From assembly GCF_000722635.1 (NCBI RefSeq), contig NZ_JOKH01000001.1:1078201-1142200 (forward strand): 64,000 nucleotides of DNA. Direction: 5' to 3'. A program made the translations under genes and the position numbers. A model generated the notes under the pieces. It saw only the letters and a program-made list of their open reading frames with translations, was not told where the DNA came from and did not search any database. The DNA is from Endozoicomonas numazuensis (lineage in GTDB: Bacteria > Pseudomonadota > Gammaproteobacteria > Pseudomonadales > Endozoicomonadaceae). The first letter of the stretch is position 1; the number at the start of each line of letters is the position of its first letter. Positions 35,583 to 60,934 of this stretch are shown in pieces.

Positions 35583-35586
35583 ATTA
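35582..35586. repeat. 5-bp target-site duplication (parE side)
   Basis: AATTA immediately before the transposon end, identical to 60935-60939. Five-base duplications are the hallmark of Tn7-type insertion. Confidence 0.9.
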
Positions 35587-35597
35587 TGTTGGAAACA

Positions 35598-35655
35598 CCA
35601 TAAGCTGGTGAGTTTTTACCAAAAGCTGGTGAGTATAATACTTTAAGCTGGTGAG
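35598..35655 (+). repeat. three TnsB-box repeats at the parE-proximal (right-type) end
   Basis: Near-identical boxes CCATAAGCTGGTGAG (35598-35612), CCAAAAGCTGGTGAG (35619-35633) and CTTTAAGCTGGTGAG (35641-35655), spaced 21-22 bp. The close packing is like the right end of Tn7 and covers the likely tnsA promoter, so TnsB binding could repress the operon. Confidence 0.85.
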
Positions 35656-35712
35656 ATAGCCACCTCTCTACTACCCTCAATACATATGAGACGGTAGTGA
35701 GAGGTGGTACTC

Positions 35713-36333
35713 ATGCCCACCAGAATCATCAAGAAATCAAAATGCAATATGCCGGGGCTGTTCCCTAGCCTTAAGAATCCAGATGGCATAATGTACGAAT
35801 CGACTCTTGAGCGTGACTATTGTTACTACCTTGAGCTTGATCCGGATGTGCGTTTTTATGAAGGACAGCCTGTAACACTTCACTTTGAAATTGATGGAAA
35901 AAAACGTCGATACACCCCAGATTTTCTAATTCTCTTTCACAACTCTGAAAAAAAACTGCTGGTTGAGATCAAGCGGGAGCAGGCTTTAATTGACGATGAT
36001 GGCTTAGTATTAAAACTGAATACAGTAAGGGAAGAATTTAAACAACAAGGATATGAGTTTGAAGTTAAAGACGATATATTCATTCGAGCAAAGCCCAGAC
36101 TGCAAAATCTTAAAAAGATTTACAAATACCTTAGATATAGTATTTCCCCAGATGAGAAAAGCACAATCCTTGAACTGCTCAAAAGCGATAAAAAATATCA
36201 AATAAGCGAGATTGGTATAGAAGCAGAGATTGCAGATCCTTTGCCAAAAGTTCTTCACTTGGCAGCGATTTCAGATCTCTTTGTTGATATCAGCTACCCA
36301 ATTGATTTGTATAGTCTGGTATGGCAGGAGTAA
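35713..36333 (+). CDS. tnsA: TnsA transposition endonuclease
   Basis: TnsA cuts the 5' strands at the transposon ends, giving cut-and-paste transposition together with TnsB. Start set at the ATG giving MPTRIIKKSK, with GAGGTGG upstream. The 206 residues hold the restriction-enzyme-like catalytic set Glu33 (TLERD), Asp70 (RYTPDF) and Glu85-Ile-Lys87, and a C-terminal winged-helix-like part. Length compares with 273 for Tn7 TnsA. The gene is clearly AT-richer than the host flanks. tnsB begins at 36336, three bases after its stop. Confidence 0.92.
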   Translation: MPTRIIKKSKCNMPGLFPSLKNPDGIMYESTLERDYCYYLELDPDVRFYEGQPVTLHFEIDGKKRRYTPDFLILFHNSEKKLLVEIKREQALIDDDGLVLKLNTVREEFKQQGYEFEVKDDIFIRAKPRLQNLKKIYKYLRYSISPDEKSTILELLKSDKKYQISEIGIEAEIADPLPKVLHLAAISDLFVDISYPIDLYSLVWQE

Positions 36334-37449
36334 AGATGTATTCATTCAACCCCGGAAATCAATTCGCTCTTGGACATAACAAGTATCAAGTGCTGGAAGT
36401 AATTAATAGCGAAACCATAAAAGCAACGAATACTCAAACTGGCCATAGTCATATAATGGCAACTGCAGAACTATACGAACATTATGAGAAAGGTGATTTA
36501 TTTTTCTTTGGTGGTGAAGTTCAAGAAAAATTAGAAGAAGAAACTATAAAAAAATTGCTAAATCCTGCCAACGGTCCAATTAGCGTCAATGAAACTCCAT
36601 CGTTTAAGGATGACTACTTAAAAAGAGACCCATATACCTACACTGAAGAAGAATTAGATATTATAGAGTTTAAACTGTCTTTCATTGATGAGATTTTGAA
36701 AAAGAACCCAGCAGCATTTACCGAAAATCATATTCAACCGTTGGTGGATGAAGTCTATGAGCGAGAACATACAAAAACTGATAAAACCAAACCATCGCCT
36801 CATACTGTCAGAAAATGGTACGATGTATATATTAAAAGCGGTAAGCAGTCATACTCTCTTTTACCTAGAATAAAAGACAAAGGTAACAGGAATGACAAGC
36901 GAGAAGACATCAAGGATGTCATAGACCAAAACATTGAAAAAATATACTTAACTAGAAATAGAAACAGTATTGCTAAAGTACATAAAGCAATAAAAACTGA
37001 AATCAAACGTAACAAGCTAGATGTACAGATTCCAAGTTACATGACCATCTATAAGCGTATTAAAAAAATGGAGAAAGATTTTCCATACGAAGTCATGCGC
37101 GCTAGAGAAGGACTAATTGCTGCTAACGAAGCATTCCGTGGCGCAGATGCAACCTATCAGGAATCCAGAGCCTTAGAATGTGTTGAAGTTGATAGCACTA
37201 AGATAGATTTATTTGTCCTTTACTGGAACGGAAGGCCTGCTGGTAGGCCTTGGTTGACCGTTGTTAGAGATCGTTATACTCAGTGCATTTTAGGATTCTA
37301 TCTTGGGTTTGAGCCACCAAGCATACTAAGTTTATCTAAAGCTCTTAAAAACTCATTCCTTCGAAAAGACCATATTCTTGAACAATTTCCAGAGATCAAA
37401 AATAAATATCCCTGCTTTGGGCTTCCTGAAATAATAGTTTGCGATAATG

Positions 37450-37458
37450 GCAAAGAAT
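37450..37458. repeat. IS target duplication, left copy
   Basis: GCAAAGAAT, repeated at 38497-38505. The IS1595 family normally makes 8 bp, so one of the nine may belong to the element. Confidence 0.85.
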
Positions 37459-38496
37459 GGCTATGTTGCGCTTAAAGGTTGAAAGCGGAGAAACTCCATA
37501 ATTTTATTACCCAATCGATCAGGTGTTAGAGTTTGAATCCCGGTTAAAGCTCTACGCCAGCCCAGGTAATGTGGTAAGTATTTTGTCGCAACCCCATGAA
37601 AAATCCCTTCTATCCAGCCCTTAAGATGGCCATGATATGCATTGACATGTTGTAAGTGAAAGATTCCATCTAAAACCCTTTTGCCAGATGATGTCACCAG
37701 CTCCTTGAAGGTGAATCCCAGCTTCCTCGCAAGCTTCTCGTGAGCGAGGCTTGCATCAGCACAAACAACAGTTTCAATATTGATTCGACCATTCAAATGA
37801 CGACAAAGTTCGTCTGCACTCTCGTTATCAAGAATGCCATCTACAGTGTGACAGTTGCGATCTCTGGCTACCATGACTGGGACTTTCCTGCATTCAGATT
37901 TCTTATCGGAGCCTCTTTTGCGAGCAGGTCTAGGCAGACCTTTCCTCTGCCCCTTAAACGACTCACGAAAGAATGTTTCGTCGATTTCCGCTATACCACC
38001 AAGCTCTGGTGCCTGATCATGCTCAATGGCTTGCAAAAAGCGATGACGCCAGCGGAATGAAGTTCCAAGCGATATTTGGCACTGCTTGGCAGCCGGACGA
38101 AGCGTGAGAGAATGAGTCATTCCTTCAAGATAACTGGACCATTTTTCGGGGTGCCTGAGTCGAGCCAATGGTGTTTTGGAAAAAGAGTTCAAAGTTTTAT
38201 GGCAATCCTTGCAACGAAAACGCTGGCGCTGGTTGCGAATACCCCACCGCTGTAGATCTTCAGAACCGCAGTGTGGGCATATTGGTGCCTTTATAAAGGC
38301 CTCTTCGATGGAGACAGCAATATCGGAAGGGGAATGTCGATCCGATAGTGCATTAAGCAGAATATTTTTCTGTTGATTTGTCAGTAACGAAATTGCATTA
38401 AGAACTTCTTGAAACTGCTGAGACTGCATAACCTAGCCTCCGGTTGAAGAACCTCGTGACAGTTTAGTCCTGTCAACCCTTTAGCGAAACATAGCC
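37459..38496 (-). mobile_element. IS1595-family insertion sequence (1,038 bp)
   Basis: Imperfect terminal inverted repeats begin GGCTATGTT at both ends (left GGCTATGTTGCGCTTAAAGG, right inverse GGCTATGTTTCGCTAAAGGG). Flanked by a 9-bp direct repeat. It contains one transposase gene on the minus strand. Confidence 0.9.
37461..38429 (-). CDS. IS1595-family transposase
   Basis: 322 residues: an N-terminal zinc-ribbon (CPHCGSEDLQRWG and FRCKDCHKT) and an ISXO2-like catalytic domain with Asp in GGIAEIDETFF, Asp in VVCADAS, and the HVNAYHGHLKGWI motif typical of the family. Its TAG stop lies inside the left terminal repeat. The gene is intact, so this IS may still be active. Confidence 0.9.
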   Translation of the reverse strand: MQSQQFQEVLNAISLLTNQQKNILLNALSDRHSPSDIAVSIEEAFIKAPICPHCGSEDLQRWGIRNQRQRFRCKDCHKTLNSFSKTPLARLRHPEKWSSYLEGMTHSLTLRPAAKQCQISLGTSFRWRHRFLQAIEHDQAPELGGIAEIDETFFRESFKGQRKGLPRPARKRGSDKKSECRKVPVMVARDRNCHTVDGILDNESADELCRHLNGRINIETVVCADASLAHEKLARKLGFTFKELVTSSGKRVLDGIFHLQHVNAYHGHLKGWIEGIFHGVATKYLPHYLGWRRALTGIQTLTPDRLGNKIMEFLRFQPLSAT

Positions 38497-38505
38497 GCAA
38501 AGAAT
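38497..38505. repeat. IS target duplication, right copy
   Basis: GCAAAGAAT, identical to 37450-37458; tnsB coding resumes at once with the Tyr-Trp codons. Confidence 0.85.
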
Positions 38506-39471
38506 ACTGGAGCAGAGCTTTCAAACTTGCATGTAGAGACCTTGGGGTTATTGTCAATTACTCTCCTGTAAAAACCCCCTGGATAAAAGGGGGGGTTGAG
38601 AGTTTTTTTAAAACATTAAACGAAGGTCTCTTGCATGAACAATCAGGAACAACCTTCAGTAATATTTTTGAAAGAAAAGATTACGACTCAGAAAAGAATG
38701 CTGTCATTTATTTTGAAAAGCTAGTTGAAATATTTTATACGTGGGTTGTAGACATTTATCATCAGGAAGCTCATAAAGGAGAGTTTGATTTAAAAACGGT
38801 CATTCCACAAAAAAGATGGGAAGATTCAGCTGCTATTTTTCCACCAATGTTACCGTCTAAAAACAGCTTTGATATTCTGTTTGGTGATGTTTATTCCAGA
38901 AAGCTAACCAAAAAAGGAATCGAAATTCAATACATATTTTATAACTCTCCAGAACTGCATAAATTGAGACAAAAAAGAGGCGATATTAAAACGACTGTAA
39001 AGCTTGATCCTGATGATATAAGCAAAATTTATGTTTATGATGAAGTGTCTGATAAGTACATAATTGCATACTCTTTAATGCCTGATTACACACAAGGATT
39101 AACCAAGTGGCAACATAAGAATAATATCCGTATGGCCAAAGTGCTGGCTGGTAAAGTTGATGAAAATGCATTGGCCGATGCTGATGCAAGAATCCAGCAG
39201 CTTGTACGGGAATGTTATGAATCAGATGGTTCTGTGTCGGCTAAAAGCAAGGTATCAAGATATCTTGGTATGGATAATGACAATCCTCTTGGCAACCCCG
39301 TAATAGAGAAAGATGACGATAATGGCTCACAGTCGGAAACTCTTTCAGGTGTAGCTACAGGTCACGAAACAGTTGCAGCCAGTGAGATAACTCCGGCTGA
39401 ATCCAAAGTCAGTAAGAAAAATAGTACTAAAATAGGATTTGCTATCTCTGATAGGTTGAAGGAGAAAGTCG

Positions 39472-40518
39472 ATGAGCAAAAAAACAGTAATTGAGCAAGA
39501 TAAAGAATACATTCTTGATCTTTTTATAACCTATCCACCAATTGATGAAATAATTAGTTATATTGAAAAATGTCTTTTAGATTCGAAAGATCGTAATCAG
39601 CCATTGTGTCTTCTTATAACCGGTGATACGGGGAGTGGTAAATCTGAAATTGGTAAACAATGTGCTAAATTATTTCCGAGAAATGATGAGGGGATTATAT
39701 CAAAAGTTCCTTTCCTATACTCCCAAGTTTTTGGCTCTAGTAAACCTAAAGACCTCTCTAGTAAGTTGTTACATGATCTTGGAGATCCAGCATATAACAG
39801 AGGAACTGACAAAGACCTTCGACAAAGGGCTATAGATATGCTCTCTGATGAAAATATAGGTAATAAAGGGGTATATCTTGATGAATTTCACAGCCTTATT
39901 GATACAGATAACCAGTCTGTGATTTTTAGCACTGGTGAGGCTCTAAAGGATATAATCATTGGCTCTAAATCAACTTTCATTGCTGCAGGAATGCCATGGA
40001 GTACTGTGATAATTGAAACTAACAGACAGTTAGCAAGAAGGTTTAAGAAAATAATTAATATCCCATTTATTGATATCAGGAATAAAGATGAATATGATAT
40101 TTTCACTGACATACTGAAAAATTGCGACGAATACCTTCCTTTTAAAAAAAACTTCCTTTCAGCTAATCATGATATTATCATAAAAATGTTTGCTTGTTGT
40201 GCAGGAAGGACTGGAGATCTTTTTGATATCATAAAATGGGCAGCTATCGAGGCATTTTCCAATAATCAAAAAAGTATCACCCTAGAAAATTTAGCATCTG
40301 CATTTGATGTTGAGGGAGATTCATTTCTTATTTCTGACAATCCATTCACCACTTCTAACAATAACAATCTAAAAATTAAAATCCTTACTGAACAATCTAA
40401 ATGGCTGAAGGAGGAAGAAAGAATTCGGGGTGAAAAAAGAATAAGAGATGCTATATTTGAAAATTTCTCAGCAGCTGAAATTCTATCCCCAAGTAAAAAA
40501 ACAAGAAAGAAGAAATGA
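39472..40518 (+). CDS. tnsC: TnsC AAA+ regulator of transposition
   Basis: TnsC is the ATP-dependent matchmaker between the target-selection protein and the TnsAB transposase. 348 residues with Walker A GDTGSGKS (51-58), Walker B GVYLDEFHS (about 133-141) and a sensor region AAGMPWSTVI. It is much shorter than Tn7 TnsC (555 aa), lacking long terminal extensions, and is closer in size to TniB-type proteins. The start overlaps the end of tnsB, with GAAGGAG upstream. AT-rich like tnsA and tnsB. Confidence 0.9.
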   Translation: MSKKTVIEQDKEYILDLFITYPPIDEIISYIEKCLLDSKDRNQPLCLLITGDTGSGKSEIGKQCAKLFPRNDEGIISKVPFLYSQVFGSSKPKDLSSKLLHDLGDPAYNRGTDKDLRQRAIDMLSDENIGNKGVYLDEFHSLIDTDNQSVIFSTGEALKDIIIGSKSTFIAAGMPWSTVIIETNRQLARRFKKIINIPFIDIRNKDEYDIFTDILKNCDEYLPFKKNFLSANHDIIIKMFACCAGRTGDLFDIIKWAAIEAFSNNQKSITLENLASAFDVEGDSFLISDNPFTTSNNNNLKIKILTEQSKWLKEEERIRGEKRIRDAIFENFSAAEILSPSKKTRKKK

Positions 40519-40613
40519 AACAGCATTTAATATTCGAGATCTTATACATCTATTGCAATTCAACACTATGTCCAAGAAAACATCTTTAGTTTTACATAGC
40601 CGGAAAGTTATTC

Positions 40614-41726
40614 ATGTCTGATTTTCATATTTATTCTGATGAAACTTTAGAGTCTGCAATAATAAGGATATTAAAAGATTTAAAATTGTCTTATAATGTT
40701 GCAAAAAAATTATATGAAATTCCATTCCCCCTTCACCAACTTAATACAAAGTACAATAAAAGGACAGAAATTGAAAAATCAATTTCCAATTTTGAAAAGA
40801 GATTAAACCTTCCTTGCAGCTCTCTATCTAGCTTGTTACTAAAGCGTATTGACAACCCTACTCCTTCTTACATAGAAAATCGATTCTCCTACACTTACAA
40901 GAACAATTCATTCCCTATATTCATGTATAGAACGGAATGCATTCCTATATGTCCTTTATGTCTAAAAGAAAATAATTACATACCCTATTTTCATCATCTC
41001 TGTAGCGTAATCATTTGTTTAAAGCATAAAGTTTATCTAGTCGAACATTGTCCAATATGTAAAAATAAAATTTCTTATATCAGAAATGAAAGCATAAGCA
41101 AATGCACTTGTGGTGCGCAGCTGCAGAATATCAAAGCAGAAGACGCTTCATCTTTTTACGAAAAAAACCTGTTTATCATAAGAATAAATCTCAAAAATCA
41201 TGACCCTTACGAATTAATTATGTATTTTTGTATGCTCCACTCTATACCAATAAACAACCAAGATGGCTTATCTATAAAAACCATAAAAAATGCTTATCAT
41301 TTTCTTTCTGACATCAAGAATAACATTCCAAAAAAAATCACAAGCGATACATTAAAAGCATTAGATAAGAATAATAAAATAAACACTATCCAACTTAGTG
41401 AAATAAATGACAGAATCCTGTTCATTCTTGAGCAAACCAATATTAACTTAGAAGCCAAATTTATCCAAAATATGAAACAGTGCATAATTGAAGGCTTAAA
41501 GAAAGCTGTAGATATAGCTATGAAAAGGAATACAGTAATTCTCATCAATGAAAATGAGTTATCAGTCCTATTTGATATAAGAAAAGAAAAAATTTTCTGG
41601 TTTCACCTTCAAGGTTTTATTACAAGCTTTTTTGAGGTCGATAAAAAAAGCTGTAGATTCAGATGTGATCATGTTTTTTTTCTACACGAGTTAATCTATT
41701 TGCACAATAATATTATAAGGGGATAA
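40614..41726 (+). CDS. tniQ: TniQ-family protein 1 (small target-selection adaptor)
   Basis: 370 residues with the TniQ zinc-binding pattern: CPLCLKENNYIPYFHHLC, ICLKHKVYLVEHCPICK and CTCG (about 114-168), preceded by the N-terminal helical part. The C-terminal region is short and Lys/Asn-rich without an obvious DNA-binding domain. It resembles in size the TniQ adaptors that work beside a larger TnsD. Strongly AT-rich, like tnsABC. It lies 95 bp after tnsC and 19 bp before the second tniQ gene. Confidence 0.85.
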   Translation: MSDFHIYSDETLESAIIRILKDLKLSYNVAKKLYEIPFPLHQLNTKYNKRTEIEKSISNFEKRLNLPCSSLSSLLLKRIDNPTPSYIENRFSYTYKNNSFPIFMYRTECIPICPLCLKENNYIPYFHHLCSVIICLKHKVYLVEHCPICKNKISYIRNESISKCTCGAQLQNIKAEDASSFYEKNLFIIRINLKNHDPYELIMYFCMLHSIPINNQDGLSIKTIKNAYHFLSDIKNNIPKKITSDTLKALDKNNKINTIQLSEINDRILFILEQTNINLEAKFIQNMKQCIIEGLKKAVDIAMKRNTVILINENELSVLFDIRKEKIFWFHLQGFITSFFEVDKKSCRFRCDHVFFLHELIYLHNNIIRG

Positions 41727-41745
41727 AAACCTGTCTGAGGCAAGG

Positions 41746-43653
41746 ATGCTACTACTCTCAAGACCTAAGCCCAACATACATGAAAGTCTGCGTGGTTACA
41801 TCCTCAGGCTATCCCAGGAAAATGGTTATCACACCAATCAGTACATCTTGGAACTGGCCGGTCTCTGTACTGGCAGAAATTATGACACAGCCAGCAATTA
41901 CGTACTGGGAGATGCCAGCCTAATAAAACTATCAAAGATTACCAATGTACCAATAGAGCAACTCCAAGCCCTGCGCTACGGGCTCAACAAAGAAAAACAG
42001 TCCATTATCCATAACCACAAAATCGCCAATGAGTACCTGCGGCTTGATTACCCCAGAGTTTGCCCGATATGCCTGGATACCAACAACATTGCCCTGGCAA
42101 TATGGGATATTCCGGCCATTACTGTTTGTCCAACGCATCACATCCAACTGTTTGATCACTGTCCAGAGTGTGATACCCGTTTGCGGTGGAACCGCCCCGG
42201 AGTCCATCTTTGTCATTACTGTGAATGTGATTTCCGGGATTACACCAGCGACAAAGTGCTGTTAGAAGAATACCGCCTATCCAGACTGATCTATCAGCTG
42301 TGTATGAATAAACCAGTACCTATGAGAAAAATTCCTAAACCTCTCTATAATCACAGCCTTGCAGACGCACTGACACTCATAAGTTCAATAGCGATTCTGG
42401 ATTACCAGCTAACTGACGAATTTCAGAAAAACAAAAAATATCTGTCCCTGAAAGCAGCCCCAAACGATCTACTCCACATACATTACAGCAGAGCCATGAA
42501 GCGTCTCGATAACTGGCCAGGCAACTTTTATAAGTTGCTTGCTGAAAACAGACAAGTCCGTAGGAAAAAAGGCAATACCGATGGTATCAGTAAAGAAATT
42601 GGAGCTCCCTTCTATCTATTAAAAGCAAACCGTCATAAGGCAGTTTATAAGCCTCTCTGGGATGCCTATTGTGATTATCGCCACAATGCAACTCAGCAAA
42701 CGATTCAAGAGGCCAGAAAGGCACGCATGGAGTCTGATTCTATCTCCATCAAAGCGGCCGCAAAGGAGCTACAAATTCGTCCAGAGCAACTTCTGAAATT
42801 CTGTAAACTCCTCAAGATTCGCTTACAGAAAGGGCCTAGCTTATACCGATTTATATCGAAAGAACGACTTGCAGAGATGCAATCGATATTAGACAAACTC
42901 CTTACTATCAGCCAAGCTGCCGACCAGCTTGGTATTACGGTATACCAGCTGAGGAACATGATACACAAAGGTGTCATTACTCCATTCCGTGGCCCTACAG
43001 TAGACAAGTCCAGAGACTGGTACATCAATCCTGAAACAATCGAAGCTTTGAAGGAAAGTATTCGCAAAAAAAGTATCAGATCAGGATTCCGCAAATCCCA
43101 TAAGCTCAACCTCAGGCAGGCTTTAGAACAGGTCTCATATTACAACCTCGGGTTACCAGAGTTAGTCTCGGAAATTATCAAGGGCAAGCTAACCCCTGCT
43201 ATTTCTGGCAAAGAAGTTAGCTTAGGGGAGCTGGCGTTTTCTCTGGAAGAAATTAAAGCCCTGCGCCCTGATATTCAGTCCGACTCTGAATATTGGCAAC
43301 CACCTCAGATTCAAAAATTTCTGGGCTGCAAGAAACATGTTGTTTTCGGGCTACTCAACAGTGGGCAGCTTCCTTTGGAAAAAATAAATCTGCCAGGCAG
43401 AACCCGTCCTGTAGTGGCTTGTAAAAAGTCAGTCGTTGAACGCTTCAAAAAAATGAAACTCCCTCTGCCTGAAATTGCCAAAAAACTTGGAACGAACTCC
43501 CCCAAGGCTATGAAAGTATTATCCTCTAATAAAATCCTGCCTATTTCTGGACCCGACATTGACGGGGGATACTGCTGGTTGTACTCCAAGAAAAAATTGC
43601 CAACTCAATTTATCAGGAAGCTAGCAGCAGAGGTAAGTGCTACCAGAAGATGA
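41746..43653 (+). CDS. tnsD: TniQ/TnsD-family protein 2 (candidate parE-site selector)
   Basis: 635 residues. The N-terminal TniQ part has ESLRGYILRLSQENG and zinc ligands from Cys106 (CPICLDTNNIA, VCPTHHIQLFDHCPEC, CHYCECDF). The C-terminal half contains several putative helix-turn-helix units (AAKELQIRPEQLLKF, AADQLGITVYQLRNM, IAKKLGTNSPKAMKV), as expected of a sequence-specific binder. TnsD proteins recognise a fixed attachment gene, so this one is the likely reader of the parE 3' end. Its base composition is visibly higher in GC than tnsA-tnsC and tniQ1, suggesting separate acquisition. Confidence 0.85.
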   Translation: MLLLSRPKPNIHESLRGYILRLSQENGYHTNQYILELAGLCTGRNYDTASNYVLGDASLIKLSKITNVPIEQLQALRYGLNKEKQSIIHNHKIANEYLRLDYPRVCPICLDTNNIALAIWDIPAITVCPTHHIQLFDHCPECDTRLRWNRPGVHLCHYCECDFRDYTSDKVLLEEYRLSRLIYQLCMNKPVPMRKIPKPLYNHSLADALTLISSIAILDYQLTDEFQKNKKYLSLKAAPNDLLHIHYSRAMKRLDNWPGNFYKLLAENRQVRRKKGNTDGISKEIGAPFYLLKANRHKAVYKPLWDAYCDYRHNATQQTIQEARKARMESDSISIKAAAKELQIRPEQLLKFCKLLKIRLQKGPSLYRFISKERLAEMQSILDKLLTISQAADQLGITVYQLRNMIHKGVITPFRGPTVDKSRDWYINPETIEALKESIRKKSIRSGFRKSHKLNLRQALEQVSYYNLGLPELVSEIIKGKLTPAISGKEVSLGELAFSLEEIKALRPDIQSDSEYWQPPQIQKFLGCKKHVVFGLLNSGQLPLEKINLPGRTRPVVACKKSVVERFKKMKLPLPEIAKKLGTNSPKAMKVLSSNKILPISGPDIDGGYCWLYSKKKLPTQFIRKLAAEVSATRR

Positions 43654-43682
43654 CCGCTCCTCTGATGGCTAGAATGTAAAAG

Positions 43683-43714
43683 CTGGGTATCTTCCCCTAT
43701 AGAAGCATACCCAG
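43683..43714 (+). terminator. hairpin after the tns operon
   Basis: CTGGGTAT (43683-43690) pairs with ATACCCAG (43707-43714). It sits between the converging tnsD-like and Avs-like genes. Confidence 0.5.
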
Positions 43715-43752
43715 TTCTGATCCCCCCTCCCTATGGGAAGCCCTTTCTCCTC

Positions 43753-50244: not shown

Positions 50245-50478
50245 AGAGGCAAGGTATGCACGAAACTCTTATCCCATGCGTTTGGCAGCCAAATGTTTAT
50301 AAACAAAGTGCTCCATGAAAAGTCTGAAAATTTGTGATGACTCGTTGGGTTGAGCTTTTGAAATTATCCACATGTTACTAGCAGACGATGGGGGCGTATA
50401 GATATCGCTTGATTCATAACAAAAGGAAATATAGCGTTGTCTACTTGAAGTACTTGGGGTTATTTGTAGGGGGATGAG
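50245..50478. other. divergent promoter region between avs-like and sir2
   Basis: 234 bp with no gene. The promoters of both divergent defence modules should lie here; I see no clear operator. Confidence 0.45.
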
Positions 50479-51672
50479 ATGAAGTTTCTTTCAGCGCAAA
50501 CTGAAAAAGTTTGGAAAGATACAATACACGATGATTCAGGTAAGGAGGCTCTCCAAAAAGTTAAATATTTCCTGTCAGAGACCATGAAATGCGAGCACCT
50601 TGTTGTGCTGACAGGTCTAGGGACTTCGCTTTGCGTCAAAGGGGCTGAAGATGCAAAATTAGCCCCTACGATGGCAGACCTGTGGAGGGCAGTAAAAAGT
50701 TCAGGGGAGGAAGACCTGAAGAGGGTCATGGGGATAGTGCGATACCCTGAGGAACCAAAGGATAATATTGAAGTACTACTCTCCCTATGCAAGTAGGCTC
50801 AGGGCTTTATAACAGGGGCAGATGAAGATCTGCTTAACACCTTCGTTGAAAGGACTGAGAAAATTGTTCATCAGATGACCTGTTTTTTGGATTCATCTAC
50901 AGAGCTGCCTGTTCATGCAGACTTTCTTCGTCGTGTCGCCCGTCGCTCAAACCGTAAGGTCAGGACAAAGATCTTTACCACTAACTATGACAAGTGCTTT
51001 GAGCAAGCTGGGAGTGCGGGTCGATTTGTAGTGATAGATGGCTTTTCACATATGCTTCCGCAAACCTTTGATGCCAGCTATTTTGGCTATGATATAGTTC
51101 AGCGCGATGAGCATACAGACTCGCCAGATTACATAAGCAATGTATTTCACTTATACAAGATGCATGGCAGTGTAGACTGGACTCGCCACCCTGAGACCAA
51201 GGAAATTTCCAAGACTGAAACTCCGGAAAATCCTGTTCTGATATACCCTCGGCATACTAAATATGAGCTTGCATTTGAGCAGCCCTATCTGGAAATGATG
51301 TCCGCTTTTCAAGCTGCCATTCGTAAGCCCAACACTGGTCTAATCGTCGTCGGCTTCGGCTTTAATGACAACCACATATCAGAACCAATACTTGCAGCTA
51401 TGCGCTCCAATCTGAACCTGAAGGTTGTTGTCTGTGATCCTGTACTGGCTCCAGAAAAGGCTCGAAGTGAAGGTGAGAAAGACTGGGATGGTATAGCGAA
51501 AACCAATCAATACTTGAAGAAAGTTCAGAGCCTAATCGAAAACGGCGATCCTCGACTGGCGTTGCTGAACGGGACTTTTGAAGATTTGGTTTCGGTCATG
51601 CCTGACATTCTCGCAGAAACCGCACTGGAGAAGCATCTTGAGCGAGTAAAGCGAATGGCGGAGGCAAGCTGA
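50479..51672 (+). pseudogene. SIR2-family NADase of a SIR2-HerA system, with in-frame amber stop
   Basis: A 398-codon gene (AGGGGG before the ATG) interrupted only by TAG at codon 106 (50794-50796); the frame continues unchanged on both sides. SIR2 motifs are present on both sides of the stop: GLGTS at 46-50, then TTNYDKCFEQA, the catalytic His in YKMHGSVDW, and GFGFNDNHI. SIR2 effectors deplete NAD during infection. The stop would remove most of the active site unless suppressed; a sequencing error is also possible. The last base of its stop is shared with the herA start (TGATG). Confidence 0.85.
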
Positions 51673-53396: not shown

Positions 53397-53401
53397 GGCC
53401 T

Positions 53402-53430
53402 TTGGCAACACCAGAAGCTGGTGTTGCCAA
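53402..53430. terminator. perfect 13-bp hairpin after herA; also matches the transposon end
   Basis: TTGGCAACACCAG (53402-53414) and CTGGTGTTGCCAA (53418-53430) form a perfect stem around AAG, six bases after the herA stop, as a terminator would. It lacks a T-tract. 53402-53423 also matches the terminal transposon sequence 35589-35610 at 20 of 22 positions. Confidence 0.6.
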
Positions 53431-53444
53431 CCTATCTGCGTGCT

Positions 53445-53456
53445 ACACCATAAGCT
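53445..53456 (+). repeat. internal TnsB-box-like sequence
   Basis: ACACCATAAGCT is identical to the 12 bases at 35595-35606 in the transposon terminus, in the same orientation. Together with 53402-53423 it gives two box-like sites 37 bp apart within the cargo. Confidence 0.5.
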
Positions 53457-53611
53457 TGGCTTCTTTCACAATTTCATCAACGGTAAGGAGAATTCCGATG
53501 GAGGCATTACTTGATGACTAATCTGGAAGAGAACGTTATTTAGCGTAGCTTGACCTGACAGACACCTTCTACGAAACCAGTAACTGTCAGATCAGGTCTG
53601 GATGCTACAGC

Positions 53612-54160
53612 TTAACTTATTGCACTTTCTGTATCATTCAAGAAATCTGCAGACAAAGCGATTCCTGCATCAGTGAGAACCAACCGTTCACGATGGTTCT
53701 TAAAAGCAAGTTGCCTCGCAAATAGAACCTTTTCTATTTCTCGAGTAAAGCTATCTTTCAGGCCTACAGCCTGAAGGATCTTCTGAAACTCTTCGTTCTG
53801 GTTGTACTGCTGGAGTGTAGGCCAGTCAATGCCAAGAGAATATTCTGTAATTTGGGAATATCGACATGACATATAAGTCATAGCTCGATGTAACAAGTCA
53901 AAAAGTACCATTATCTTCATAGCTACTTCACCGGGCTGACCAGATTCCCCTATTCGATTAACGAAGAAACTGTTACCCATCTGGTTCAACTCATATCCAA
54001 TGGCTAGATAAAGAGCACTATACTGCTGCCGTGTAAACTCGTTAGCTAATTCATCAAATAAAGGGTTAGGTACTAGTCGATCACCTTGCGCGTTGCTTTT
54101 ATTGATAAAAGCGCCCTGCATGAAGGTGTCGTATATCTCTTTGCTTTTGATGTTGTCCAT
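53612..54160 (-). CDS. jetB: JetB/MukE-like subunit of a Wadjet-type SMC system
   Basis: 182 residues, the last gene of a four-gene operon. It is mostly helical with winged-helix character (DELANEFTRQQYSALYLAIGYELNQMGNSFFVNR) and a C-terminal LVLTDAGIALSADFL. Size and position between the kleisin gene and the operon end fit a MukE/MksE/JetB KITE protein. The ATG directly follows the jetA stop. Sequence similarity alone would not identify it; the assignment is mainly by context. Confidence 0.7.
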   Translation of the reverse strand: MDNIKSKEIYDTFMQGAFINKSNAQGDRLVPNPLFDELANEFTRQQYSALYLAIGYELNQMGNSFFVNRIGESGQPGEVAMKIMVLFDLLHRAMTYMSCRYSQITEYSLGIDWPTLQQYNQNEEFQKILQAVGLKDSFTREIEKVLFARQLAFKNHRERLVLTDAGIALSADFLNDTESAIS

Positions 54161-55606
54161 CTACACAGCCTTTTTAGCGTAAGCATGAAAAACCTTAGGT
54201 CGGTATCCAAGCTCAAAACCTTTGTGTTCTATTTTCTGTGGCTCTGATTCATAGCTTAGAGAGTTCTGAGTCTTACCTTTACTGCTAATATACTCAACAG
54301 CTTCGCCAAGCCAAGATAAATCGTAATCTTCAATCTCGTTTACTAGATGTTGATGCAGGAACAAATGAATATCGCCAGTATTGTTAGGTAATTTCAGTTC
54401 CTCCAGAGTGATCATCAGGCGTTCAGATTTTCGGGTATCAATTGAAGTGAGATGAGCTTTTGCATCTGGTTTAACCCGTTTGGCCTTCTCCGCTATAGAT
54501 TCAAGTCTGACACGTAAAAACTCCTGATAACTCTCTAATGCCGACTCTTTGACCCAGTTGACAGGCTGAGAATTCCGGTGGCCATAGGCCTTGAGTAAGC
54601 CAAGAATCTTTGCGTCTTTAAAAACTAGATCTGTCGGTTGCAGCAAGTAGCCCCTCTGCTGTCCGCGCTGGTTTTCGCGAACTACATCTTTCAGGCGGTT
54701 GAAGCGTTCCTCTGCCACGTTGTAGAAGTGGCGATCTTCTTCATCCATTTTCAGATAGCGGCTCAATTGTTCAGCCACTAGGACTATATCACGACCTAAA
54801 CTCTTAATATCTAACAGCAACCGGTTAAGAATCAGGGACTGCTCGTGTGCTTTGAACAGATCAAAATGATCAACAATGTTTTTCATCACCTTCATTGGAG
54901 CCTTGTTTGATTCACGATGAATGGTGACAATTGCACTGTTACTTGGAGTACGCTTGATATCTAGGGAGGGATCCAGAAACAAAAGGGTTGGCAACACGTT
55001 ACGTTGGTATAACTGCGAAATCCGATCCATGGTTTCTCGGTACTGCAAATACTGACCGTCAACAGAAAAATCAACCGAGTCGACAATTTTGCTCAGTTGC
55101 TCGGCATGCCCCTTTAGCGATTTAACATTGACCCTCAGCTTTGCAGCGACACTGTAGAAGGTATCCCTGACTGCTTCGAACATTTCTTGATAGCTCAAAT
55201 CGATACTGTGATGGTGACCTACATTCATCGCCATTGCATAAGCTCCATCAATCTGGCTAACGAGTAGGTTGAGATCGTAATCAGAAAGCTCGCGAATTCG
55301 CTTGGCCTCGAGCTGACGGAGCAGCCCTTCAACATGAGCATTAAGAGAAAAGCGCCCTTCGTTATAATCAAGGGTTTCAAGCAAATCATTGTATTTCAGA
55401 TTGTCGAGAGAAAGAGCATCAATGAACTTGTATCTGGCTGCGGCATCCATGCTACTGCTGGCCACAGTCAAAGCATGATCGTATTCAGATATCAAGAACA
55501 AAAAGCCACTGGCATGACTGCCTGAACTGTGGCGATCCATAAGTTCAAAGAACAAGCGTTTGTTTTCAAAAATAGTGGCAATGGTGAGATGTGTAGCTGT
55601 GCTCAT
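54161..55606 (-). CDS. jetA: JetA/MukF-like kleisin subunit
   Basis: 481 residues, almost entirely helical, with an N-terminal winged-helix-like region (FFELMDRHSSGSHASGFLFLISEY) and a C-terminal part (DIHLFLHQHLVNEIEDYDLSWLGEAVEYI) suited to closing the SMC ring. The start overlaps the jetC stop as ATGA, showing translational coupling with the SMC ATPase. Kleisins bridge the two SMC heads and bind JetB. Assignment rests on size, fold impression and operon context. Confidence 0.75.
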   Translation of the reverse strand: MSTATHLTIATIFENKRLFFELMDRHSSGSHASGFLFLISEYDHALTVASSSMDAAARYKFIDALSLDNLKYNDLLETLDYNEGRFSLNAHVEGLLRQLEAKRIRELSDYDLNLLVSQIDGAYAMAMNVGHHHSIDLSYQEMFEAVRDTFYSVAAKLRVNVKSLKGHAEQLSKIVDSVDFSVDGQYLQYRETMDRISQLYQRNVLPTLLFLDPSLDIKRTPSNSAIVTIHRESNKAPMKVMKNIVDHFDLFKAHEQSLILNRLLLDIKSLGRDIVLVAEQLSRYLKMDEEDRHFYNVAEERFNRLKDVVRENQRGQQRGYLLQPTDLVFKDAKILGLLKAYGHRNSQPVNWVKESALESYQEFLRVRLESIAEKAKRVKPDAKAHLTSIDTRKSERLMITLEELKLPNNTGDIHLFLHQHLVNEIEDYDLSWLGEAVEYISSKGKTQNSLSYESEPQKIEHKGFELGYRPKVFHAYAKKAV

Positions 55607-58581
55607 TCAGTCTCACTCTCTGCCATCAGTGGATCTTCCGAAGACTTCTGGGGCTGGCTGTCTCCTTCAATGCGCCTGAGGTATTCCCCATTACTGTGGT
55701 ATATCGTCGTACACTTCGCGCCGACCTGCTCAGTATCAGTTACTTTTTGATCAAAGAGATAGCACCACTCACCAAGCGTTTTGCTAATATGCATCTGGAA
55801 GTGAGGTGTGGCTGCCAACAATGTAAGCCCAACACGTTGCACAATATCGTGCAACGCGGGCAGATTATTCTCATCTATGGCAGCAGCCTCATCGAAGATC
55901 ACTGGCATTCTCATTTTGAGATCACCAGACGTCAGCTTATCCAGCAGTATGCTCAATACAACAGTGTTGACCATTATGGTCGTACCATTGCTTTGCTGAG
56001 TCTTTTCCTGTCGTCCTTTAAATCCGTAAATGTACTCAACACCTGTAACAATGCTCTCAATATCCAGGAGTCCTTTTTTTCGCCCCTTTTGCAGATAGGT
56101 ATCGCTGAAGTTTCTTAGGCGCTCATAGAATGAGTCGGAGGCCAGTGAGTCCATATCTGTACGGAAATGCGAAACATCATCAATCAGGGTCGTAAAACCT
56201 TGATGTTTTTGGATCCTTAGCTCGACGGATTCCAGGTTTGATACCTGAACACCAGAAAATGACTGATTAATCTCATTGGTGAATGCTCCAATTCCGCCAT
56301 TAATCTGCTCAAGCAGGCTGATCTCTCGAGAAGTATTCGCATTATGCGTTTTAATTCTGTCTGAAAGCTCCTGTTCGTACATATCTAGATTGTGAAATTC
56401 AGTGTGTAAACGATTGCATGCCTGTTCAAAATTTGCACTACTCAGATCAACCGTATAAGCCGCGTCTTCGATACCTGAAACAATCTCAGTTTTAACCAAC
56501 TCCTGAAGCAAGCGAATACAATGATTCCGACCAGATGCCAGGTCAACACTAATGATCTTATCCTGACTCTTCGACTCTTCGTCGATAGCTTCCGCATCCT
56601 TTACTGTCGCGGGTGCTGGAACAGCCGTGTGCTCAAAGGCACCATTGATGAGCTGATGACAATTACGCTCAAGTGTGGCAAGGCTATTTTTAAGCTGTGA
56701 GTTTGCCTGTCTTGAAATTTCAGCCTTTTGCTTGGTATTGCTGTGCAAATTCTTCTGGGTGCTGATTTTTTCATTCAAACCCATGATCTGGGCAGCCAAA
56801 TCATTTTTTCTCTGAGTTTCCAGCTCTACCTTTTCTGAGCTGACCTCTAGATTTTCTTCGTTTTCATTGAGTCCAAAAATACTTGCAATTTCTGCAGTAA
56901 TTTCATCAATCTGTTTTTTTAGCTCTTTCCGCTCATCAGCTTGTTCTATCTCACTCCCCTGCAGGAACTTATTGTCTTTGGATATCTTAAGATCCAGCTC
57001 GACACTTTCCGACACCAGCGATTGCTTCCTCATCTTTTGCTCAGAGCGAATAGTTTCTGCACTGTGCTCGGTAAAGAGTACATTCGGTATTGCAACGCCA
57101 CCAATAGTCAACTGTTTGCCATCTTGCCCCAGTGAGCTGGCAAAATGGCGGCAGGCATCAATAACACTTGGGTCATCAAGTGCTCGAACATGACTGAAAC
57201 TGGAGTTAACGGAATAAATTAGAGACCCTGTCTGGCTGTCTAGTTCGTCAAGAAGCCCTCTGTCAGAGCTTAGAAGAGTGTCCAGATTTTCTATTTCTTT
57301 ATGGACTTTATTTTGCCGGGCAATGTTAGCCTTTAGACGAGTCTGGGCACTATCGATATCCCGAAGCGCATCAAGCCTCTGCTCATACTCTCGTTTACAC
57401 TCTGTCAGATAATTGATGATGTCATGGTGATCACTGCTCTGTACTACAGGCATGTTGGAACGGATGGCGTTCAGCGCTCGATCAACTTTCTTCTGACTGT
57501 TACTCACTGCTTCTGAGGCTACTCCGAGAGAAATCTCAACCTTCTTTAACTGATCAGCAAGTAGCTTCTTTTGCTCCCTTAACATCTCAATCTCATTGCC
57601 TATATCTTGAAGCTGTTCAACGTTTTCAGTGACCACTTCTGAATGATAGGTCTGCTGATCTAATGCCTTCTGGTACAAAGAACACAAATCCTTGGTCACT
57701 TGGGTTTTCAGTGACGCATATTGACGGCGTTGCTCAGTGAGAGCATCCCAAGTACATTTGTTATTTTTAAGCCGCTGTATGTGATCCTGCTTCCCTCTCA
57801 GCTCTGCCCGTTCCTCCTGTATTTTCTCAAAATCAATTTCAGACTTGTCTCTGGATGAACTCATGGAGCTGCTTATAACGCTTGCAACTGCTTTGGCCAG
57901 ACCATTACCTTTGGGAAGTAGGCCAGCGGATAGCTGTAATAATGTCTTAAGAGCGGCAATAGATGAATCAGATGCATTACCGAGAGGAACAAGACAGTAT
58001 TGGGTGTCACTACGACCAACCTGTACTCGGTTATAAAGCTGTTCTTTCAGCTGAGTGCGCTGGGTCTGTTTTGAGCCCCCAAAATCTAATAGAGCCTTCT
58101 GAATATCAGTGAACCCAATATCAAAACGAGGGGCTCCTGCACCATTATTTACAGGGCTTCGCTTGTCCCAAAAAAGGTGTTCAATATCTGCATAAGGCTT
58201 AGGTACTGCAATGCGTCCATAGCCTAATTGCTCTCTGCTCTGGTGCAATACAACACAGAATGTATGCTTTGGGTTAACGGCTTCCAGGATGATGTAACTG
58301 TCTGGGGAGGGAAAATAATAATTAAATGAGTCTATGCCAGAGTGTTCATTTCCGTTGGACTGAAATCCAAATTTGGAACTGCACTCCTTGAAGTTTACTT
58401 CTGGCAGCAGAAAGAGCAGAAACACATGAAGTAAACTTGTTTTGCCATTGTTGTTCCCACCCAAGATAGCAAGAGAAACATCGACGGGGAGCTCTATGTA
58501 CGCAGCACTGGCTGAATGAACAAGCACAATTTTGTTGAAGCGATATTCTTTGGCATCTGCAAAAGCATCAAGTGTGGCCAT
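55603..58581 (-). CDS. jetC: JetC/MukB-like SMC ATPase
   Basis: 992 residues from the start MATLDAFADAKEYRF (a longer frame is unsupported). Walker A GGNNNGKTS lies at 41-49 and Walker B IFDEAAAIDE near the C-terminus. Between them run two long coiled-coil arms (KKLLADQLKKVEISL, EKISTQKNLHSNTKQKAE) with a hinge-like middle. SMC ATPases of Wadjet extrude DNA loops and sense closed circular plasmids. It overlaps jetD by 14 bp and jetA by 4 bp. Confidence 0.87.
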   Translation of the reverse strand: MATLDAFADAKEYRFNKIVLVHSASAAYIELPVDVSLAILGGNNNGKTSLLHVFLLFLLPEVNFKECSSKFGFQSNGNEHSGIDSFNYYFPSPDSYIILEAVNPKHTFCVVLHQSREQLGYGRIAVPKPYADIEHLFWDKRSPVNNGAGAPRFDIGFTDIQKALLDFGGSKQTQRTQLKEQLYNRVQVGRSDTQYCLVPLGNASDSSIAALKTLLQLSAGLLPKGNGLAKAVASVISSSMSSSRDKSEIDFEKIQEERAELRGKQDHIQRLKNNKCTWDALTEQRRQYASLKTQVTKDLCSLYQKALDQQTYHSEVVTENVEQLQDIGNEIEMLREQKKLLADQLKKVEISLGVASEAVSNSQKKVDRALNAIRSNMPVVQSSDHHDIINYLTECKREYEQRLDALRDIDSAQTRLKANIARQNKVHKEIENLDTLLSSDRGLLDELDSQTGSLIYSVNSSFSHVRALDDPSVIDACRHFASSLGQDGKQLTIGGVAIPNVLFTEHSAETIRSEQKMRKQSLVSESVELDLKISKDNKFLQGSEIEQADERKELKKQIDEITAEIASIFGLNENEENLEVSSEKVELETQRKNDLAAQIMGLNEKISTQKNLHSNTKQKAEISRQANSQLKNSLATLERNCHQLINGAFEHTAVPAPATVKDAEAIDEESKSQDKIISVDLASGRNHCIRLLQELVKTEIVSGIEDAAYTVDLSSANFEQACNRLHTEFHNLDMYEQELSDRIKTHNANTSREISLLEQINGGIGAFTNEINQSFSGVQVSNLESVELRIQKHQGFTTLIDDVSHFRTDMDSLASDSFYERLRNFSDTYLQKGRKKGLLDIESIVTGVEYIYGFKGRQEKTQQSNGTTIMVNTVVLSILLDKLTSGDLKMRMPVIFDEAAAIDENNLPALHDIVQRVGLTLLAATPHFQMHISKTLGEWCYLFDQKVTDTEQVGAKCTTIYHSNGEYLRRIEGDSQPQKSSEDPLMAESETE

Positions 58582-59395
58582 AATCCCCTGGCTCCAGTAA
58601 ATAAATTTCTTGCTCAAGGGTAAGCTCTGCATTAACAAGCTTACCGATGACAGTTGATAGTTTTGGTTCTTTTGTGGCTAATTCTTGGAGCTTTTCGGAT
58701 TCTTCGGGAGACATGTGGCGAGATGATATAGATAGGTAAACACCTATATCAGTTGGTACAAGAAATTCACCGAAGTTGTTCAGTTTCTTTGCTAAACGTG
58801 CCGCAATGGCTAGTCCTTCATAGTCCAAGTCAGGAAGCACATGAATGCGTTTAAATCTCTGGAAAAATTCAATGTGTTGTTTTTTTTCAGCGGCCTTGCC
58901 TCCCCCCCAAATCAAGACAAGTGGATCAGATGCATTCAGAGAAAAGGTCTCAATTATAAAGCGGCGAGTTTTGTCACTGTGGAGAAAATTTTCTAGGTTT
59001 TCAACTATTACCGCATCATGCCCGAACTCTTCTTCTCTAAAAGGGTAAATCCAGCCCTTTTCACTTAAAGCGGTTGCACATACAGGGTGTTCAGAATACG
59101 GAATCGATATATTCAGCAAAGAGGCACGATTCTTAGCATCGTGACTATGACCCGACAAAGCAGCCGTCGCTTTAGATCTCAGGTTTCTCGATGGATAACG
59201 CCGGCGCAAGGCTATAAATTCTTTGTGATCAATTATGCTTACAAGAGCTAGTCCCTTCCCCACAGCAGGCACAAGAATCCTTTCTATCTCGGGTGGATTA
59301 AAGCCTTCCTTAACAAAAGCTCTTACTAATACATTCCACTTGATGGGCTCTCCGTTTGCAATCAGATCCAGCATGGATGCAATTTTCTGACTCAT
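58568..59395 (-). CDS. jetD: JetD-like Toprim nuclease subunit, first gene of the operon
   Basis: 275 residues. The C-terminal two-thirds shows the topoisomerase VI/Toprim signature of JetD: Glu132 in AVIVENLENFL, IWGGGKA, and the metal motif D189-L-D-Y-E-G194 in VLPDLDYEGLAIA, followed by TLEQEIYLLEPG. JetD cleaves plasmid DNA handed over by the SMC motor. It is shorter than the roughly 380-400 residues I expect for JetD, with a reduced N-terminal arm, and comes first rather than last in the operon. Confidence 0.8.
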   Translation of the reverse strand: MSQKIASMLDLIANGEPIKWNVLVRAFVKEGFNPPEIERILVPAVGKGLALVSIIDHKEFIALRRRYPSRNLRSKATAALSGHSHDAKNRASLLNISIPYSEHPVCATALSEKGWIYPFREEEFGHDAVIVENLENFLHSDKTRRFIIETFSLNASDPLVLIWGGGKAAEKKQHIEFFQRFKRIHVLPDLDYEGLAIAARLAKKLNNFGEFLVPTDIGVYLSISSRHMSPEESEKLQELATKEPKLSTVIGKLVNAELTLEQEIYLLEPGDYGHT

Positions 59396-59428
59396 GTGTC
59401 TCGATTACCAAGGTATCAACAACCACCC

Positions 59429-59450
59429 TATCGTATCAAATGATACGATA
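59429..59450. promoter_or_regulatory. 22-bp palindromic candidate operator between jetD and the WYL regulator
   Basis: TATCGTATCA and its exact inverse TGATACGATA flank a 2-bp AA spacer. It sits 34 bp upstream of the jetD start and about 100 bp from the divergent regulator gene, where a CapW/BrxR-like dimer would be expected to repress the operon. Confidence 0.7.
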
Positions 59451-59504
59451 AACGTCAAAAAAACGAATCAAATTTTTATTTTTTAACCATTTAATGCTAT
59501 CTTT

Positions 59505-59516
59505 GAGACTTGTCTC
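59505..59516. promoter_or_regulatory. short palindrome near the regulator start
   Basis: GAGAC-TT-GTCTC, 34 bp upstream of the WYL-regulator GTG. It may be a second operator or a leader hairpin. Confidence 0.35.
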
Positions 59517-59550
59517 TATGAAAGCTATGTCTGATTAACCTCTGGAGTTA

Positions 59551-60639
59551 GTGATTAAATTAATGGATTCAGCTCAGGCATGCCCAAGGCATGTATTCAT
59601 TGACCAAATGCTTTATTTTACCGGCCGACTGTCTCGCAGCGACCTTGTTTCTGTTTTTGGCGTAGGAGTAGCCACTGCTAGCCGAGATATTTCAGCCTTC
59701 ACAAGTAGCTTGAAAGAGCCCGACTGTGTAATAAGTCGTGGTAGGGAAGGCTACTGGGCCAGAGAAAATTACAAGCCAAAATTCAATCATAACCCTGAAG
59801 TAGCATTGGATTTAATGACCAGCTCCTTGGTGAAGCATTGGGTTGATAAACCCAACTATGGGCATAACCAACCTTTAAGTTACAAATCGCTTGAAGCTGA
59901 GGTTATTGCTCCCATTACGTGTGCATTAGTTGCGCAGAAACCTGTCCAACTCCTATATCAGACTTCAGGTAACAATGGATTAGAGCGCTTAGTCGTGCCC
60001 ATTGCCCTTTTCGTAGCCAGCGGGTTTCGATATGTCCGTGTGTATGAGATCAACCGACAGCGATTTATAACTCTGAAACTAACTAGAGTTATATCCTCAA
60101 GTTTGGATACTCAAAGTCAACGAATTACTATTCCAGTCGATGAGGAATGGTCAAGGCAGGTTATCTTATCGATTGGAGCCCATCCCTATCATCCATCAAA
60201 AGAGAGCATTGAACGAGATTATGGTTTACCTCGTGACGGGATCAAAAATTATTCTGTGACTGCGGGTTTTGCAGGATATTTACTTGCAGAGTGGCGTGTA
60301 GACTGTTCTGGTGCAGGCTTTCTGGATCCTATTCAGTACCCGTTCACATTAGCCAATAGGCAGGAGCTGGAAGAAGTAAATTCTTTAGAGATTGCACCAG
60401 GGTTTCAAGTCTCTGATTACAGTTTTACTGTTGTCATAAGTAGTGTTGAAAAAATCACCAATGACTTAGAAAAAACTATCTATGAGTCAGGCTGCAGTGA
60501 TGGGCTGCTGTGTGAAACAGATGGTGCTGTTTCTTTGAGACTCAGAAGAACGCACCTTAGTTTGGATCAGGCGATTGGTTCAGTGTTGAAGAAGTTATCC
60601 AGTTGCGGCTTAAATCAGTTGAAAGTCATTTTCCAGTAA
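59551..60639 (+). CDS. WYL-domain transcription regulator (CapW/BrxR-like)
   Basis: 362 residues from a GTG with GGAG close upstream (an ATG four codons later lacks a suitable site). An N-terminal winged helix (RSDLVSVFGVGVATASRDISAF) is followed by a linker, a WYL domain (PVQLLYQTSGNNGLERLVVPIALFVASGFRYVRVYEINRQRFITLKLTRV) and a C-terminal WCX-like extension. Homologues are dimeric repressors of CBASS, BREX and other defence operons and sense a nucleic-acid ligand. Divergent from jetD, it is the likely controller of the Jet operon through the palindrome at 59429-59450. Confidence 0.82.
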   Translation: MIKLMDSAQACPRHVFIDQMLYFTGRLSRSDLVSVFGVGVATASRDISAFTSSLKEPDCVISRGREGYWARENYKPKFNHNPEVALDLMTSSLVKHWVDKPNYGHNQPLSYKSLEAEVIAPITCALVAQKPVQLLYQTSGNNGLERLVVPIALFVASGFRYVRVYEINRQRFITLKLTRVISSSLDTQSQRITIPVDEEWSRQVILSIGAHPYHPSKESIERDYGLPRDGIKNYSVTAGFAGYLLAEWRVDCSGAGFLDPIQYPFTLANRQELEEVNSLEIAPGFQVSDYSFTVVISSVEKITNDLEKTIYESGCSDGLLCETDGAVSLRLRRTHLSLDQAIGSVLKKLSSCGLNQLKVIFQ

Positions 60640-60800
60640 CGTTTTTTTGTGGTTAAAAAAATTTGCTCTCGATGTGGAGATGAATTTTTACAGATATCGA
60701 TTTCCTCAAAGGTCTTATTTGAATTGCGGATAGGCATTCTATGATAGGACCAAAGTTCAGAGTCTACGATCAATAGTTTTATATTATGGCTTGCAGGAAA

Positions 60801-60923
60801 CTACCAGCTTATGGTGTTAAAGCGATGTAATTTACCAGCATATGGTTAAAATACATACCAGCTTATGGTGAAAATTAGAACCTAATATCAATAGGTTAAA
60901 GAAGATTTCTTACCAGCTTATGG
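60801..60923 (-). repeat. four TnsB-box repeats at the distal (left-type) end
   Basis: Copies of TACCAGCTTATGG (inverse of the boxes near parE) lie at about 60802-60814, 60833-60845 (one change, GCATATGG), 60856-60868 and 60911-60923. The wider and unequal spacing contrasts with the compact opposite end, as in Tn7 left versus right ends. The region 60640-60800 shows no gene. Confidence 0.85.
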
Positions 60924-60934
60924 TGTTTCCATCA

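Follow-up and report, generated by a model that had tools for sequence, protein, structure and literature searches.

A Tn7-like transposon with two TniQ-family proteins, a small TniQ and a TnsD, is inserted at the stop codon of parE in Endozoicomonas numazuensis and very probably reached this gene through a parE-recognizing TnsD of the kind found in parE-attached type I-F3 CRISPR-associated transposons (CASTs). The element lies in a 64,000-nt stretch of DNA, hereafter the window (assembly GCF_000722635.1, contig NZ_JOKH01000001.1, positions 1,078,201 to 1,142,200), in which a sequence-only reading had described a complete Tn7-like island with intact boundaries. Its span, 35587-60934 (25,348 bp), was read directly from the sequence. 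The attachment gene, parE (33693-35582, + strand; TIGR01055 parE_Gneg equivalog, 1029 bits), which encodes topoisomerase IV subunit B, is intact. Its TGA occupies 35580-35582, and the element starts four bases past this stop, the gap that had been reported. An exact AATTA repeat flanks the element at 35582-35586 and 60935-60939, the first base of the left copy being the A of the parE stop codon.

The left terminus, at 35587, reads TGTTGGAAACACCATAAGCT; the other terminus, on the opposite strand, reads TGATGGAAACACCATAAGCT. When inverted, the terminal 20 bases of the two ends agree except at the third base (TGTTGG versus TGATGG). According to scans for a 13-nt box core, ACCATAAGCTGGT, at ≤2 mismatches, the left end (35587-35652, + strand) contains three copies, at 35597, 35618 and 35640, and the right end (60800-60934, − strand) contains four, at 60803, 60834, 60857 and 60912. 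Matches to this core outside both arrays occurred in the 64 kb at 53410, 53447 and 60213, every one within the element. A longer pattern, CCATAAGCTGGTRAG, yielded 11 matches in the window at ≤3 mismatches versus 2.9 expected, and 11 matches were reached in none of 100 shuffles. The G+C content of the element is 0.43, versus 0.50-0.52 in the flanks. Inverted ends with box arrays and a 5-bp duplication identify a Tn7-like element, and both boundaries of the island at the parE stop proved to be intact. The boxes are presumably bound by TnsB.

The element contains the core set of Tn7-like transposition genes (TnsA, TnsB, TnsC and TniQ/TnsD), all on the + strand. More specifically, tnsA (35704-36333) encodes a 209-aa protein with a Tn7_TnsA-like_N domain (PF08722, E 5e-13), and tnsC (39472-40518) encodes a 348-aa TniB/AAA protein (PF05621, E 9e-21) whose best solved relative is VchTnsC of Tn6677 (7rzy, E 1.8e-30). 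The small TniQ of 370 aa (40614-41726; PF06527, E 4.5e-8) is followed after 19 bp by a 635-aa TnsD (41746-43653) with a TniQ domain and an HTH_17 domain according to profile matches. The tnsB gene is in two pieces. Its 5' part (36321-37458), which is 23-35% identical to TnsB of relatives, ends in VCDNGKEW, and its 3' part (38506-39494) includes GGVESFF and a Mu-transpos_C domain (PF09299, E 6e-11). At 37459 the frame gives way to a 1038-bp insertion sequence of the IS1595 family (37459-38496, − strand; transposase 37461-38429, NF033547 E 4.5e-52), which has 27-nt inverted repeats (85%) and is flanked by a 9-bp repeat, GCAAAGAAT, at 37450-37458 and 38497-38505. Counting the copy in the window, the genome contains this insertion sequence four times at full length, at 99-100%. 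Assuming the usual DDE layout, VCDNGKEW would contain the putative second catalytic Asp and GGVESFF the putative catalytic Glu; the insertion probably splits tnsB inside its catalytic core, parting these two residues. Because the insertion splits tnsB, this copy of the element is probably immobile now. Moreover, only two TniQ-family genes were found in the genome, both on this element, and therefore no second TniQ-carrying Tn7-like system able to help. Thus, the tns genes that had been read from the sequence were borne out for tnsA, tnsC, tniQ and tnsD, but tnsB is split, and a complete active element is ruled out.

Whether parE is an established attachment gene had been left open. It is one for some I-F3 CASTs, via TnsD: PMC11406308 describes members that own a parE-targeting TnsD and lists Tn7017 (EasCAST), and a second CAST, PcCAST of Parashewanella curva strain C51, also targets parE as described in PMC12719977. 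No paper on the present element was found in a literature search, most subscription papers being beyond its reach.

To place the insertion among relatives, we compared 15 parE loci, 11 from genomes of the genus and four from genomes of the family (from 16 further stretches cut around tns matches). The tns genes lie directly 3' of parE in six: the window and genomes G657, G671, G664, G667 and G139. I-F3 CASTs occupy this site in G657, in G664, which is Endozoicomonas ascidiicola AVMART05 (L077 and L108, one place), and in G671, whose cas7 and cas8/5 frames are split (L107, 4561-7870); the last CAST is apparently losing its Cas genes. In G667, a core and a split tniQ are found at parE, with cas and TnsD unmatched in the stretches fetched. 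The element of G139 (L110/L154) is ∼35 kb long, with cas unmatched in the first 20 kb and a 3152-aa open reading frame as cargo. It begins directly after the parE TGA and has CCTGA on both sides, its own 5-bp duplication. The closeness to the gene that the sequence-only reading had noted is thus not peculiar to this copy.

Ends of the window's kind also occur in the genus. The 19-mer terminal box was found, at ≤2 mismatches, in nine places in five of the 11 genus genomes; seven of these places are parE-linked. The remaining two, with two mismatches each, have other locations, including one within the element of the window. In G163, a lone right end of this kind stands 1.1 kb past parE and is followed by AGTGT; its own parE ends TG-AGTGT, an offset that matches TG-AATTA of the window. 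G660 (L072) has both ends, nearly the same as in the window and 12.4 kb apart, with a tns remnant consisting of an 18-residue tnsA match. This 12.4-kb derivative has parE on one side and, on the other, a left end resembling that of E. ascidiicola, next to which there is also a tnsA-tnsB remnant. In G658 and G659, one palindrome stands alone after the parE stop. No tns match and no window-type box (≤2 mismatches) was detected within the 8-20 kb that follow parE in G007, G185, G206, G661 or G662.

Tn7 TnsD recognizes the 3' coding portion of its attachment gene, and by analogy the TnsD of the window presumably binds that of parE. Across the 15 parE loci, the best-conserved part of the last 150 nt includes the codons for MDMLLAKK, which are 58-81 nt before the stop. 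This block would fit a TnsD recognition site, but conservation of the protein explains it too.

The TnsD of the window is closely related to those of the three parE-attached CASTs, being 59% identical to that of L073 (G657), 60% to that of L107 (G671) and 59% to that of L108 (E. ascidiicola), over 626-629 aa. The four proteins form a clade with a support of 100/100. TnsDs of this type, at E < 1e-290, were found in four of 38 family genomes, and the element is directly 3' of parE in all four. By contrast, the transposase cores are distant. With respect to L073, L107 and L108, identities were 31, 31 and 23% for the N part of TnsB, 36, 33 and 31% for its C part, and 27, 25 and 25% for TnsC; those for TnsA were 26-29%. 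The small TniQ is 34, 30 and 40% identical to its three counterparts over 93-210 aa, and 25% identical to the E. ascidiicola TniQ end-to-end. The TnsCs nearest to that of the window are those of L110 and L109 (34-35%), which belong to elements without a Cas match.

A similar mismatch is found among the CASTs themselves. The cores of L073 and L107 are sisters (TnsB 71%, TnsC 61%) and fall with L119 in one clade of the TnsC tree (100/100), yet the identity of their TnsDs is 56%. For L107 and L108, it is the cores that are distant (TnsB 35%, TnsC 32%), but the TnsDs are 65% identical, and Cas6 (69%), Cas7 (58-66%) and Cas8/5 (62-67%) are similar. In an approximately unbiased (AU) test, an L073 + L107 clade was rejected by the TnsD data (p-AU 5.8e-5), this pair having been chosen from the TnsC result once a first TnsD tree had been viewed. 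Because the TnsD data reject a clade shown by the transposase core, target-selector modules have moved between transposase cores at parE. The core of the window is a third one that goes with this TnsD type, and it lacks Cas. Adjacent elements, as in G660, would offer a chance for such exchange. The trees used here and below were small, with 8 to 25 rows.

The TnsD type was also sought more widely. A scan of an 84,980-species collection with two peptide patterns returned one locus, that of E. ascidiicola; because only two patterns were used, the absence of the type elsewhere is weakly tested. In sampled searches of the order, matches at E ≤ 1e-60 occurred in two of 391 genomes, both of the same family, and matches at E ≤ 0.001 in 25 of 293, the best one beyond the own genome being 23% identical. 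In a sampled search of the class at E ≤ 1e-20, one genome besides the own matched among 369, with an identity of 24%.

The small TniQ has CAST TniQs as its best solved relatives (30ga, E 2e-13; 7u5d, E 5e-10), which we take to belong to I-F3 CASTs. In trees, it fell on the side of 14 I-F3-type TniQs with supports of 100/100 (24 rows) and 89/97 (25 rows), on a very long branch (3.0). Among these 14, the TniQs of L111, L115, L117 and L118 come from loci with a partial cas8/5 match only, the stretch ending there in L111, L117 and L118 and continuing in L115; the trees did not include the TniQs of L119 (split) and L109 (449 aa). Trees in which the 14 I-F3-type TniQs are held together without the window TniQ were not rejected (AU 0.24 and 0.15). 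Nor was a grouping of the window TniQ with the small TniQ of G139 (AU 0.22), though the best tree separates them. The small TniQ and TnsD of the window are themselves distant, with only 46 aa alignable at 30% identity. A structure model of the small TniQ had a mean predicted local distance difference test score of 33 and was unusable.

I-F3 CASTs are recognized by cas8/5, cas7 and cas6, together with a CRISPR array or a delocalised crRNA. In a tblastn search of the window with ten Cas proteins, no match fell below E 0.67. The same queries matched nine of 17 family and class loci at E ≤ 0.001, where L077 and L108 are one place and L108 was the source of three queries; the eight loci free of a match were L109, L110, L112, L113, L119, L120, L121 and L122. 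No Csy4 was found in the genome, and Rfam gave no match in 33000-62000 at E up to 1. Array-like direct repeats were absent from 39400-44200, 50200-53700 and 59300-60940, a search that a lone delocalised repeat of unfamiliar sequence would escape.

In the mechanism that we favour, TnsD would attach to the conserved 3' coding stretch of parE and then recruit TnsC. TnsA and TnsB would excise the element and join it just past the stop, duplicating the 5-bp AATTA and keeping parE intact. The small TniQ may have served a second target pathway via a partner that is absent or unrecognised, and TnsD is part of a module that has been exchanged between different TnsABC cores at parE. The present copy, probably stuck through the IS1595-family insertion, persists as a defence island.

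Several observations weigh against this explanation. The termini of Tn7-like transposons are TGT...ACA; the left terminus of the element is TGT, but the right terminus is TGA on its own strand. The TnsD of the G139 element is only 22% identical to that of the window, indicating that a different TnsD can reach parE. The CAST TnsDs closest to that of the window differed by tree, being those of L107 and L108 in two (80/81; 95/90) and that of L073 in another (90/93). In G660, the flanking repeat is 10 bp long (TGACTGCTGG) and the derivative starts seven bases past the stop, off the simple pattern. Finally, no relative was seen that joins parE to the right flank of the window, so there is no empty-site proof. 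Partial matches to the 2766-bp right flank occurred in 10 of the 11 genus genomes, the own included. Its NUDIX gene had a near-full match only in the own genome and G007, with 74 nt matching in G662, and the 8-20 kb downstream of parE in the ten relatives had no match to this gene or to the glycosyltransferase gene of the right flank. The glycosyltransferase gene lies away from parE in six relatives, far apart or on another contig, and the NUDIX gene of G007 is on another contig. Both contigs of that genome break off close to these genes, ∼0.65 kb beyond NUDIX and 5.5 kb beyond parE, so the two may be adjacent there. The right flank also contains a ∼105-bp repeat (∼61932-62037), matched at more than 20 places in the own genome, and a segment (∼63567-63639) that matches elsewhere with a 36-bp shift.

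The separation of parE from the right-flank glycosyltransferase gene in those six relatives is what would be expected had no transposition occurred, the AATTA match being due to chance and the block having come to lie beside parE by homologous recombination or rearrangement. We consider this highly improbable: chance would give five identical bases at a set position in about one of 1000 cases, the ends are inverted and carry box arrays, G163 repeats the offset, and a separate 5-bp duplication is present at this stop codon in G139. How the element came to lack Cas is a separate matter. One tentative possibility is that it descends from a parE-attached I-F3 CAST that lost cas8/5, cas7, cas6 and the array, bringing tniQ next to tnsD. 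The order tnsA-tnsB-tnsC-tniQ-tnsD is indeed that of the G657 CAST minus its cas block, the small TniQ resembles CAST TniQs in structure matches and trees, and relatives display decay of the cas block, as in G667 (core and split tniQ without a cas match) and G671 (split cas7 and cas8/5). Set against this are the very long branch of the small TniQ and the unrejected trees that place it outside the CAST TniQs, the lack of any cas or CRISPR remnant in the tblastn, Rfam and Csy4 searches, and a TnsC that is nearest to those of elements without a Cas match.

It is just as conceivable, and no more firmly held, that a dual-TniQ core never had Cas, that its small TniQ worked with another partner, and that only TnsD was taken from a parE CAST. 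The family has other dual-TniQ elements without a Cas match, namely those of G139, at parE (TnsD 603 aa, TniQ 376 aa), and G665, and it is their TnsCs that are nearest to that of the window. Dual TniQ-TnsD loci are also common, with 998 loci given in PMC10293859. The tniQ-tnsD pair of G139 is, however, on the strand opposite to tnsABC, and the best tree parts its small TniQ from that of the window. Because the alternative TniQ groupings were not rejected, Cas loss and an origin without Cas stand level. A bolder idea, which we regard as rather unlikely, places the element midway between Tn7-like transposons guided by CRISPR and those guided by protein, with a small TniQ of the CAST type, no Cas and a TnsD common to parE CASTs. 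It would either have reverted to protein-only homing or have a TniQ guided by an unknown partner, and parE would be a point of selector exchange.

Returning to arrival at parE through a CAST-type TnsD, the element is a further example of a TniQ and a TnsD that differ in origin and occur as a pair; the main survey reports few such examples (PMC10293859). In a single bacterial family, elements at one attachment site combine this TnsD type with several distant cores, with and without CRISPR. The gain or loss of RNA guidance in Tn7-like elements is thereby open to direct test.

Like the element described here, Tn7 combines TnsABC with TnsD, inserts just 3' of an essential gene and generates a 5-bp duplication; it differs in its glmS site, in inserting farther from the gene and in having TnsE. 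The E. ascidiicola CAST, of the Tn7017/EasCAST kind, shares with the window a site few bases past the stop, a TnsD that is 59% identical and collinear tnsABC, tniQ and tnsD. Its cas8/5, cas7 and cas6 lie between tniQ and tnsD, whereas the window has no cas; its TnsABC and TniQ are only 23-40% identical to those of the window, and its left-end boxes differ. We presume that this locus is Tn7017 itself. PMC11406308 names EasCAST and the parE site, not coordinates. PcCAST resembles the window, by description, in its TnsD-led attachment to parE and differs in being a CAST with Cas (PMC12719977). The G139 element is alike in its parE site, 5-bp duplication, small TniQ plus TnsD, lack of a Cas match and TnsC (34%, among the two nearest), and differs in its TnsD, in the strand of tniQ-tnsD and in its ends. 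The gene following tniQ in the window is tnsD, in Tn6022 there being TniQ and TnsF at comM. The dual loci of Faure et al. 2023 likewise combine a large with a small TniQ-family protein and so have two possible targeting routes; most of those pairs are ascribed there to duplication and few are distantly related, whereas the window pair is distant and its TnsD is shared with CASTs (PMC10293859).

The cargo consists largely of defence genes, which are reported to be enriched in Tn7-like elements (PMC8649781). An Avs3-like NACHT protein of 2163 aa is encoded at 43753-50244 (− strand; PADLOC Avs3a, E 7e-167). A SIR2-HerA pair follows on the + strand according to PADLOC, with sir2 at 50479-51672 and herA at 51672-53396 (HerA, E 5e-199). 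The former comprises two same-frame open reading frames (50479-50796 and 50875-51672) parted by a stop; because this in-frame stop cuts sir2, the pair may be inactive here. A divergent Wadjet-like operon (53612-59395, − strand) was recognized by JetD_C and MksE Pfam matches and by PADLOC (JetD, E 8e-7). In order of transcription, it encodes a JetD-like protein (58568-59395), a 1011-aa protein (55603-58638), a 481-aa protein (54161-55606) and an MksE-like protein (53612-54160); family matches of the 1011-aa and 481-aa proteins were weak or none. A WYL-domain protein (59551-60639, + strand; PF13280) is encoded next to the right end.

An internal palindrome at 53402-53430, with a 12-bp stem and an end-box core, stands five bases past the end of herA; 37 bp further on there is another, weak box (53447). 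It is a palindrome of this kind that stands alone after parE in G658 and G659, where it might be the scar of an older element or a host hairpin. An origin by imprecise excision accounts for them only in part: in G659 the termini and offset fit, but the right flank lacks the expected duplication. The alternative is a terminator-like hairpin.

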